Shown here piece by piece: positions 1,075 to 3,992 of a stretch of 24,548 nt of DNA. Position 1 is the stretch's first letter, and every line of letters starts with the position of its first letter. The stretch is from a virus, in the IMG/VR virus record IMGVR_UViG_3300048918_000412, positions 1-24,548 of that record. One strand, written 5' to 3'. The position numbers and the translations under genes were made by a program. The notes below the pieces were generated by a model. The model had not been told where the DNA came from. It was given only the letters and a program-made list of their open reading frames with translations, and made no database searches.

Positions 1075-1079
1075 CGGCT
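1067..1079. terminator. Short hairpin at the convergent stop codons (weak)
   Basis: AGCCG-TAA-CGGCT forms a 5-bp stem with a 3-nt loop, exactly where the plus-strand tail gene and the minus-strand polymerase fragment converge. No T-tract follows on either strand, so it is at best a weak bidirectional terminator and may be chance. Confidence 0.2.
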
Positions 1080-1194
1080 AGGATTTCCGGAACCTACGAC
1101 CTCTCCACCCGCCGCTCGCCCGTACGGCCCACCCTTGCGCCCACCACGGCATCGTCGACATGAGCCGTTCGACTTCCTCGATCGACCCATAGCC
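1078..1194 (-). pseudogene. Displaced remnant of the DNA polymerase C-terminus
   Basis: Read on the minus strand from 1194 to the TAG at 1080-1078, this gives 38 residues (GYGSIEEVERLMSTMP at the start, ASGGWRGRRFRKS at the end) that align without gaps to the last 38 residues of the polymerase at 1779-3992: 26 of 38 identical by hand count, and mostly conservative changes elsewhere. It has no start codon and lies directly behind the HNH gene stop (TAA at 1204-1202). GC is 76/117 here against 56/117 for the same 38 codons plus stop in the live gene. It therefore looks like the original, GC-rich 3' end of the polymerase gene, cut off when the HNH element brought in a replacement tail. Confidence 0.85.
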
Positions 1195-1201
1195 AGCCGG
1201 T

Positions 1202-1813
1202 TTAGGGGGTGTGTTTGTTTTTCTTTGCGAGGTTTTCACGGGCCGTTAGAACCTGTAGATTCCAAGGCACGTGCAGTCCACAGACGACCGGCGATACGAG
1301 CGGTACGATATGGTCGACATGGTGTGGCTCGCCAGTTCCTTCTGCGCAAATGCGTGCCAACCAATACATCGCGGCCATTTGTTTTCTGTGCTCGCGAGTT
1401 AGCCAAGACGGCGCGGCTTGTTTCTGAACGCATTCTCTAAACCGATTATGTTCGGTAACCCGATTTCGGTTAGCGGCTTTCCATCTTCGATTAACTTCTC
1501 GAAGATGGTCGGAGTTTTCCTTACGATAACGACGTCCGGTTTCTTGATACCTATCGGGATTTTTTAGAACCCAAGCCTTAGCACGTACCGCCCGCTTGTC
1601 CGAATGACGATTAGCATAGTCCCGTTCTTTTCTACGACAGGATTCTATATTACGGTTACGCCAATTTCGAAGGGCTGAACGAGAACAAGGGCGGCAGTAC
1701 GCAGCCAATCCGTCACGCCTCGTCTTACAGGGCCCAAACATTGTAACGTCGTATACAACGTTACACGACGGACAAATTTTACCCTTTTCTATATCGTTTC
1801 CCACGCCATCCAC
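1202..1813 (-). CDS. HNH homing-type endonuclease
   Basis: 203 residues from a GTG at 1813; a GTG three codons later (1804) is an alternative start. The N-terminus has a zinc-binding pair C14-x2-C17 / C40-x2-C43 of the type found in phage HNH nucleases, followed by a long basic Arg/Lys/Asn-rich helical stretch (residues ~45-125) for DNA contact. The HNH fold is at the C-terminus: HHVDH (164-168), then GLHVPWN (179-185) and ENLAKKN (193-199), supplying the catalytic His and metal ligands. It overlaps the polymerase 3' end by 35 bp in another frame and ends two bases before polymerase-homologous sequence resumes. The gene is clearly AT-richer than its surroundings. It is probably a mobile nuclease that cuts polymerase genes lacking it; self-homing is inferred. 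Confidence 0.88.
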   Translation of the reverse strand: MDGVGNDIEKGKICPSCNVVYDVTMFGPCKTRRDGLAAYCRPCSRSALRNWRNRNIESCRRKERDYANRHSDKRAVRAKAWVLKNPDRYQETGRRYRKENSDHLREVNRRWKAANRNRVTEHNRFRECVQKQAAPSWLTREHRKQMAAMYWLARICAEGTGEPHHVDHIVPLVSPVVCGLHVPWNLQVLTARENLAKKNKHTP

Positions 1814-3992
1814 CTGATGCTGAAACTGGCCAATCCGAAGCCCATGCAGGCATAGATGACATGATTCGCTCTACTTCTTCAAGACTACCGAATCCGTATG
1901 GCACCTCAACCACGACCTCGTCGTAGACATGAAGTACGGTTGGGTAACCGGCGACGCGCAGCATAATGATCGCGTGCCGCAAAATGTCGTGCGCCACGGC
2001 CTGCACGATATTCTCGGTTAGTCGGCCGCCGTACGTTGACATGCGAACCCAACCCATGGCGCCGTATTTTGGGTTACTATTATGCGTTGAGTAGAGAATC
2101 GACACCTCGTCGGCGTTGCGGTCCGACTGCACGAGCCGCGGCTCGTGGTAAGTCAGGTCACGGCCCGACGGCAGCGTGATGACCAGCTTGTCGCGTGCGG
2201 ACAGGTACGTGAAGCCGATGCCGCGGAATTCCTGCCGCACGTCGGGTACGCGCAACGCACGGATGAACGCACCCTCGACGCCGTAGAGCTCGGCGTATTC
2301 GCGTCGCCAGGGCGGCCCGCGCCACTGCCCGCCCCAAAACTCGACGATGGCCGGCGAGGCGGCGCGCCAGGCGAGAATTTGCGCACGGATCGTCTCGTCG
2401 TCCTCGGTCGATCCGAACGCCTTGTACGAGCCGATCCAGCCGCCGAAGCCGCAGGCTAGCTCCGACACCTTGCCGATGTTCTGACGATCCGGGTGATGGT
2501 CGCCATGCTGCTCCTTGTACGCCAGGTATGACGCGAGCGGCACGCCGGTTATCTTGCTCGCGCCGACGAGGTATATCGGCTCGTGATTACGGAACGCGTC
2601 GATTCGCCACTGCTCGCCGGCCAGCATGGCCAGCACTACCGCTTCGATCGCGCTATAGTCGGACGCGATAAGGTCGTGCCCCTCGGCCGCAACGAACAGC
2701 CCGCGCACGCAGCCCGATATGGCGAGCAGGGCGTCGCCGAAAAACTGCTCGACCATTGCTAGCGAGTGCAGCGCCATGATTTCGAGCACGTCGTCGACGT
2801 ACCGCGTCTGCCAGGACGGACGTTGCTGGCGCACGTTATAGAAGCGAGCGCCGCACCACGGGCAGTCCGTTGCGGTCGGTCGCATGGGGCGTTTGCATGC
2901 CTCGCACTCGACCAGCTTCGGCCCGGCCTTCGGCAGGTTGAGCGGCTGGACCCCGCCGCCGCCCGTCGGCCGGCCCGTCCGCGCGCCGTGGTGTACGATC
3001 GTGTCGCGGATTCGATTATCCCGACACGTCGTATTTTCCAGCGCGTAAATTTTCTTGACGCTCGCCGAGCCGGTCAGCGCGCGAATTTCCAGCACGCGGC
3101 GTGCGTGCGGCGGCAGGTCGTCACGTGCGAGCGCCGCCTCGACTGCCTCGGCATCAAGCGTGTAGAGATGCACGCCCTGCGCGGCGAGCCACCCGCGCAC
3201 CGCCTCGACCTGCGACGGTTTCAAGCCACCGGTCAGCGCCTCGCACTCCGCGCCGTACTGGTCGAGCACCTGGTTGAGAATGACGATACAGTCACGTACG
3301 CCCGCACGATCGACGCCGATGCCACGTGCGTTGATTTCCTGGTCGATCAGCCAAAACCCAAGTTCGGCCGGCGTCATCGGGTCCATTGCGTCCGATGCGG
3401 CTTGTTCGACCTGCACGTCGCGTGCGCAATATTCGTACAGACGCATCGCGTCGTCCGGGTCGTCCTCCGGTCGGATCCGCAAGCGCGGGTCGCCCTTGGT
3501 CGGATTGCGCGGCACGGAAAACTTGTCGAGCAGCCGTTTGCCGTCCTTGTCCTTACGCGTGTCGAGCCGCAGCACGTCGCCGAGGTTGTCGAGCGCGCCG
3601 GGGAGGGACTGTACGCGTGCCGTCGCCATGCTGCAGCGCTGCACGTACGGCGGCAGCGGCGGCCAGCCGTATTTAGGGACGCAGACGTTCGTCCATATCA
3701 ACCGTTCGAACATCGCGTTATGCGACTCGATCGGTCGACCCGCCGCCACGTGTTCGAACAGGTCGACCGGGTTCGGCAAGCCGGGGCGCCAGAATTGCAC
3801 GCCTCGGCCGTCCGCCAGGTCGTACCGCCAACAAAGCACTTCGGTCGACGGGTGCTCGCTATACGCCGCGGCGCCGATCGCCGGCAGTCCCTTGCGTCGC
3901 GCGCCGGCGGGCGGTTGCCAGCGTCCGGTCGTTGCGTTCCAATCGTGTCCGGCCTCACTGTACGTTTCGCAGTCCTGCGCGGCGTGGGTCAC
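1779..3992 (-). CDS. Family A DNA polymerase with 3'-5' exonuclease domain
   Basis: 737 residues, GTG start at 3992, two bases after the upstream stop. The exonuclease domain shows D7-x-E9, SHNAMFERLIW (90-100) and YCARDVQVE (188-196). A zinc-ribbon-like insert, C363-x2-C366 / C377-x2-C380, lies between exonuclease and polymerase. Polymerase motif A is SDYSAIE (D445), the O-helix region is RQNIGK (503-508), and motif C is HVYDE (D691-E692). It is the replicative polymerase of the phage, extending primers at the fork. The last ~38 codons (1779-1892) are AT-rich and duplicate the 38-residue fragment at 1078-1194, so the present C-terminus appears to have been imported with the HNH gene. The enzyme should still be complete, because the catalytic motifs lie before the swap. 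Confidence 0.95.
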   Translation of the reverse strand: MTHAAQDCETYSEAGHDWNATTGRWQPPAGARRKGLPAIGAAAYSEHPSTEVLCWRYDLADGRGVQFWRPGLPNPVDLFEHVAAGRPIESHNAMFERLIWTNVCVPKYGWPPLPPYVQRCSMATARVQSLPGALDNLGDVLRLDTRKDKDGKRLLDKFSVPRNPTKGDPRLRIRPEDDPDDAMRLYEYCARDVQVEQAASDAMDPMTPAELGFWLIDQEINARGIGVDRAGVRDCIVILNQVLDQYGAECEALTGGLKPSQVEAVRGWLAAQGVHLYTLDAEAVEAALARDDLPPHARRVLEIRALTGSASVKKIYALENTTCRDNRIRDTIVHHGARTGRPTGGGGVQPLNLPKAGPKLVECEACKRPMRPTATDCPWCGARFYNVRQQRPSWQTRYVDDVLEIMALHSLAMVEQFFGDALLAISGCVRGLFVAAEGHDLIASDYSAIEAVVLAMLAGEQWRIDAFRNHEPIYLVGASKITGVPLASYLAYKEQHGDHHPDRQNIGKVSELACGFGGWIGSYKAFGSTEDDETIRAQILAWRAASPAIVEFWGGQWRGPPWRREYAELYGVEGAFIRALRVPDVRQEFRGIGFTYLSARDKLVITLPSGRDLTYHEPRLVQSDRNADEVSILYSTHNSNPKYGAMGWVRMSTYGGRLTENIVQAVAHDILRHAIIMLRVAGYPTVLHVYDEVVVEVPYGFGSLEEVERIMSSMPAWASDWPVSASGGWRGKRYRKG

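Follow-up and report, generated by a model that had tools for sequence, protein, structure and literature searches.

The stretch of viral DNA analysed here (the window, 24,548 nucleotides) carries a family A DNA polymerase gene with two 3' ends, one in use and the other stranded behind an HNH endonuclease gene. The segment from 1901 to 1202 on the minus strand is quite likely a homing-endonuclease element made up of a DNA-divergent substitute for the last 40 codons of the polymerase (T') and an overlapping HNH gene of PHROG 1035. It also seems reasonably probable that phages harbour a general class of such splicing-free, end-swapping HNH homing elements, with the order A-B'-HNH-B at the 3' side of a gene or A-HNH-A'-B at the 5' side. 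Members of this class would bring a substitute copy of the shorter side and leave the gene full-length, the HNH gene would borrow the old start codon in the 5' form, and the substitute end would guard against the element's own enzyme and against recombinational loss. The features of the window are as follows.

Positions 3992-1779, minus strand: family A DNA polymerase open reading frame (Pfam DNA_pol_A, E 3.7e-10).
Positions 1902-3992, minus strand: polymerase body to motif C (...HVYDEVVVEV), read as native (Pfam; GC3 0.808).
Positions 1779-1901, minus strand: live polymerase 3' end T', read as substituted (40 codons and stop; GC3 0.30).
Positions 1202-1813, minus strand: HNH endonuclease gene (203 codons, GTG start at 1813; PHROG 1035 'endonuclease VII', E 1.2e-20; GC3 0.448).
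Positions 1201-1204, minus strand: junction, consisting of the HNH stop codon TAA (1204-1202) and one base, then the remnant (read directly).
Positions 1078-1200, minus strand: orphan polymerase 3' end T, read as native (40 codons and stop, still open; tblastn 27/39, GC3 0.75).

The HNH open reading frame (1813-1202, minus strand) overlaps that of the polymerase by 35 nt. Its product has an N-terminal CxxC..CxxC zinc knuckle, a rod of helical repeats and a C-terminal HNH motif that reads HVDHIVPL..CGLHVPWNLQ..N..KKN. In the family alignment the catalytic DH, N and N are invariant and the zinc cysteines nearly so. The AlphaFold model (pLDDT 89) contains the N-terminal knuckle, a rod of helices of about 14 residues and a C-terminal strand-strand-helix region. 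All 13 HNH family members tested belong to PHROG 1035, and by its motif and zinc knuckle the predicted protein is classed with the free-standing HNH homing endonucleases of phages in this group. The Pfam HNH match lies below the cut-off, NCBIfam gave no match for the protein and PDB no significant one; a search of alphaproteobacterial genomes with the HNH profile returned nothing, in a run that had no positive control.

The initial annotation had reported an orphan polymerase C-terminus after the HNH stop codon, and this is real, with its coordinates and identity counts correct. The open stretch at 1200-1078 (minus strand) translates as PAGYGSIEEVERLMSTMPWWAQGWAVRASGGWRGRRFRKS, followed by a stop. 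It shares 26 of 39 residues with the live tail in global alignment and 27 of 39 (69%) by tblastn, with E values of 1.4e-11 when searched in the set of loci and 9e-20 when searched in the 1.8 kb behind the polymerase itself. The start of the remnant had been placed at 1194, which is roughly right and not exact: homology begins one to two codons earlier, at PAGYGS, which matches the P-x-G-x-GS of the polymerase family, so the remnant starts at 1200. The break point in the recipient would accordingly lie at about 1200/1201. The orphan tail is altered at one invariant residue (RYRK to RFRK) and one near-invariant residue (WPV to WAV), and the changes at this tyrosine and proline are as would be expected of a piece released from selection. 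Among the other polymerase loci none of 185 has a second polymerase tail; the window alone has a full one.

The two tails differ sharply in base composition. The GC counts given initially, 56/117 for the live tail and 76/117 for the remnant, were reproduced exactly. T' as a whole has a GC content of 0.479 against 0.65 in the polymerase body, and its GC3 lies below that of any 40-codon window of the body (lowest 0.625 in 657 windows). The difference between tail and body, -0.173, is the lowest among 186 polymerase loci, the others having a mean of -0.003 (sd 0.043, lowest -0.134). The polymerase body is 62% identical to that of locus L002; the best match for the live tail is in L009 (74%), yet the L009 polymerase body is only 47% identical. 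On the simplest reading, the live tail and the HNH gene arrived jointly from another source and the orphan is native to the phage. Two tail copies flanking an HNH gene could also result if the polymerase tail had been duplicated locally in tandem, an HNH gene had then entered between the copies and these had diverged. This is highly unlikely, as a local duplicate would begin as phage-like DNA, whereas here the expressed copy is the compositionally odd one (GC3 0.30 against 0.81) and shares its oddness with the HNH gene; moreover, an amino acid shared by the two tails is encoded by the same codon at only 2 of 22 comparable positions.

The HNH-less polymerase relatives L002-L006 (59-62% identical) have a single tail each, and no HNH-less relative carries both tails. 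None of the observations that the initial annotation had named as refuting its proposal was made. The remnant is no closer than the live tail to these relatives. Tail identities alone do not decide the polarity in the polymerase, as identity to the closest relatives without an HNH gene is only about 60%; that the live tail is foreign and the remnant native is the simplest reading of the base composition. The proposal of a [tail + HNH] unit inserted behind motif C thus stands as regards the foreign composition and the stranded native end. No phage record with both parts was recovered by a chimeric query of tail and HNH, and the T'+HNH pair was found in the polymerase of no other phage; therefore, its movement as a unit is something we infer.

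Other ways of lodging an endonuclease gene were considered for the window and rejected. The polymerase frame is complete without splicing and includes the full-length C-terminus with GGWRGKRYRKG. A group I intron is dismissed, as the window has no Rfam match and the frame is whole unspliced. An intein is dismissed, as the HNH gene is in a different frame and spans the polymerase stop codon and the DNA beyond it. A split gene of the nrdA/mobE type is dismissed, as the upstream polymerase frame keeps its full-length C-terminus.

Two further polymerase loci with an HNH gene, L035 and L095, were examined as tail duplications and rejected, since alignment with eight HNH-less relatives places the HNH gene at the polymerase end. 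An 'ERYHKD' echo in L035 is ambiguous, a similar non-coding motif being present there in HNH-less relatives. The last polymerase codons of L035 and L095 read AGY..VRYHKD, those of all eight HNH-less relatives AGW..RYHKD. A promoter-like TTGAC..AATAAT of this polymerase family is moved behind the HNH gene in both (L035:3282-3960, L095:5298-6130).

Recurrence of the architecture was assessed by a blind scan for the C-terminus of the upstream gene just downstream of the HNH gene, with 116 testable distinct loci. Six loci reached an E value of 1.3e-8 or lower, namely the window and the following five, in which gene names are from Pfam for L061, L090 and L269 and from homology for the rest.

L061 and L273: large terminase, repeated tail of 44 aa with 70 and 73% identity (E about 1e-21).
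L090: tail assembly chaperone, repeated tail of 52 aa with 46% identity (E 1.5e-16).
L314: tail assembly chaperone, repeated tail (E 1e-8).
L269/L270: major capsid protein, repeated tail (E 3e-11).

Host genes with the 3' form are thus of four kinds, those for polymerase, terminase, tail chaperone and capsid. In the control of 365 permuted gene/downstream pairs one value fell below 7e-5, and it belongs to a true chaperone homologue. The old tail starts at the HNH stop codon, give or take a few bases, in L061, L273, L090 and L314; in L269 the HNH frame continues into it, which gives the endonuclease the former capsid C-terminus as its own end. The live and old capsid ends agree at 18 of 20 residues, yet at only 4 of 17 comparable codons. 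For the chaperone gene of L090, identity with the tail of the relative L043 is 62% in the remnant and 44% in the live tail, a comparison that leans towards the remnant as the native end. The initial annotation had suggested a search for the tail and HNH pair in other phages: the architecture recurs in terminase, capsid and tail-chaperone genes, the same polymerase tail does not.

The window consists of one virus record, which is probably a fragment, and a chimeric contig could in principle produce such a junction. An assembly artefact is nevertheless extremely unlikely. The same architecture occurs in contigs of other origin; the HNH-remnant junction of L061 is also present in contig L266 and the junctions of L269 are common to L270, and the names of the paired contigs bear different sample numbers. 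The frames are open, and the old tail abuts exactly at the HNH stop codon every time. The cases with duplicated ends are uncultured contigs only: megablast of the window against phages gave no match, and none of 20 records from phage collections, comprising isolates and complete genomes, that encode this HNH family had duplicated gene ends, two weak tail scores among them (E 3e-4 and 5e-4) being within the range of the permuted control.

The expectation that HNH-less relatives continue directly into a tail like the remnant is borne out most clearly in the terminase, the polymerase relatives being only about 60% identical. HNH-less terminases (L360, L278 and the cultured Roseobacter phage CRP-6, in which the portal gene is directly behind the terminase) end in ..WEPLGS[IT]GSPDRLDA.., the type of both terminase remnants; in L061 and L273 the live tail is ..[YF]EP[ML]GK[HQ]KSPDRYDA... 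The remnants of L061 and L273 share their first codon (TGGGARCC), and their HNH proteins are only about 43% identical. Compared with L061, the tail of CRP-6 shows 88% identity with the remnant and 70% with the live tail. Because its body is only 51% identical to that of L061 in spite of the 88% match in the tail, co-conversion may have extended far upstream in the terminase; in the window the body appears native up to the junction.

The T' type of tail is common to the loosely related terminases L061, L072, L273, L318 and L075, which would suit a reversed polarity, with the live tail native and the HNH gene and downstream tail piece a foreign insert. Such a reading is very unlikely, for HNH-less terminase phages carry the downstream type, L075 excepted, and in the window the downstream piece shares the GC-richness of the phage, and the live tail the AT-richness of the HNH gene. 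The terminase of L075 (496-630) has the HNH-associated tail type and no HNH gene behind it; possibly the element was lost after the tail swap. L057 has one terminase with an HNH gene upstream (483-1013) and an HNH-like start directly behind (2424 onward).

A mirror form was found by a scan of gene starts, in loci L084 and L360. The HNH gene of L084 lies upstream of a gene starting MSWSYDPNNLSTTTSSGRLN, and the case in L360 is at a portal gene. In both, the HNH frame opens with the old first 19-20 codons of the gene, which then follows with a new, similar start. Including the capsid case, an old gene end is fused in frame to the HNH gene in three loci (L269, L084 and L360).

These arrangements can be accounted for by a homing cycle. 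In a mixed infection, the HNH enzyme would cut an element-free polymerase gene just behind motif C, at what is now the remnant start. The upstream broken end would be extended with the donor as template, from the conserved body across T' and the HNH gene, and the downstream end would be rejoined at the HNH stop codon, stranding the recipient's own tail T. The polymerase would thereby retain a working C-terminus without splicing, and T' would lack the uninterrupted target. The cleavage, the position of the cut, the mobility and the immunity conferred by T' are what we infer from the sequences.

An accidental, one-sided repair is a serious possibility, somewhat short of an even chance. Here the HNH gene would normally sit neatly after a stop codon, and in a diverged cross the upstream join would be homologous and the downstream join illegitimate, leaving the tail as a passenger and the remnant as a scar. 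This is one form of the same event, set apart by the passenger status of the tail, and the confidences in the two overlap. Clean terminase-HNH pairs with an ATGA-type overlap exist (L078, L267, L305, L309 and L357), as do the polymerase-HNH pairs L035, L095 and L060, and several relatives have a native terminase tail with the HNH gene set neatly after its stop codon. Furthermore the L061 sister L072, with 87% identity in the terminase and 95% in the next gene, has the live tail type and the HNH gene without a remnant, so that the remnant is no fixed part and can be lost or need not form. Both the clean pairs and L072 lean towards the remnant being a scar left when repair was one-sided. Against accident, the terminase remnants share a start codon in two loci, and the 5' mirror cases and in-frame fusions (L269, L084, L360) look like a repeated architecture, not random joins. 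The recurrent borders, the fusions and the 5' form thus lean towards the substitute tail as a built part of the unit.

Further endonuclease inserts were seen in relatives. The polymerases of L009 (5438-6289), L010 (5582-6406) and L011 (6315-7169) have in-frame inserts at the same site (GK..ELAC) with intein-like ends, CFGPxTQVLTxRGYVDI ... TPDH ... VYDIxxAGPxNRFTIxTxSGHLxVHN. These inserts encode an HNH protein in another, overlapping frame, like the hidden HNH of ShiLan (PMC11855218) but with splicing-type motifs. A GIY-YIG-like frame (L011:4936-5592) separates the first and second pieces of the L011 polymerase, which thus has at least two endonuclease inserts. In phages LP.1, RF1, Alux-21, D69, D181 and CRP-2, the 3' end of the HNH gene overlaps the start of the next gene by about 8-14 nt (L423:2898, L345:2865, L430:2976, L351:2838, L426:2889, L438:2511 and 3165); the next genes encode terminase, polymerase, tape measure, tail proteins and primase, and in CRP-2 the HNH gene also overlaps the end of an upstream integrase.

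The likeness to duplicated C-termini in fungal mitochondria that was noted at the outset is a close one, for the mORF gene hybrids (Allomyces macrogynus atp6; Glomus atp6, atp9, cox2 and nad3) have the same architecture (PMC3630166). In these hybrids, an endonuclease ORF and a foreign C-terminus sit in an essential gene and the native C-terminus is stranded downstream, the protein being conserved and divergence mostly synonymous; the Glomus atp6 case has a LAGLIDADG ORF and about 1 kb between the copies (PMC3630166). Their defining arrangement, a divergent C-terminus upstream and the native one downstream, is found in the window and in the other genes. The phage cases differ in the HNH type of endonuclease, the overlapping frames, the remnant directly at the endonuclease stop codon and the 5' mirror form.

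Among phage systems, the available part of PMC2988022 describes the intronless homing of T4 seg and mob genes, in which a stand-alone HNH or GIY-YIG gene lies beside conserved genes and flanking sequence is co-converted. Free-standing phage homing endonucleases resemble the present elements in adjoining conserved genes and differ in that the same part of that source describes no duplicated gene end. It also covers genes in pieces (mobE in nrdA of Aeh1, seg in gene 43 of phage 25), which likewise have an endonuclease in an essential phage gene without splicing; theirs, however, is a gene of two reassembling polypeptides, whereas here there is one full-length frame. The hidden HNH of the ShiLan type is inserted in a phage gene without an intron and read through in frame, with no duplicated gene end, unlike the window (PMC11855218). 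Intergenic elements, introns, split genes and hidden HNHs, and no duplicated gene ends, are described in the available portions of the phage literature on homing endonucleases (PMC2988022, PMC10448857, PMC12724721, PMC11855218). No phage case of end-swapping was found in the literature, mostly that outside subscription journals.

From these comparisons, a splicing-free way of living in essential genes by means of a substitute end looks like a recurrent habit of selfish endonucleases in phages. Selfish endonuclease genes in essential phage genes persist as introns, inteins or tolerated splits, and the finding would add a further solution, parallel to that in fungal mitochondria. The first base of the remnant marks the presumed cut, which would make the target site readable. 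Such elements would explain sudden, localised end replacement in polymerase, terminase, capsid, portal and tail-chaperone genes, and such replacement can mislead phylogenies and gene calling.
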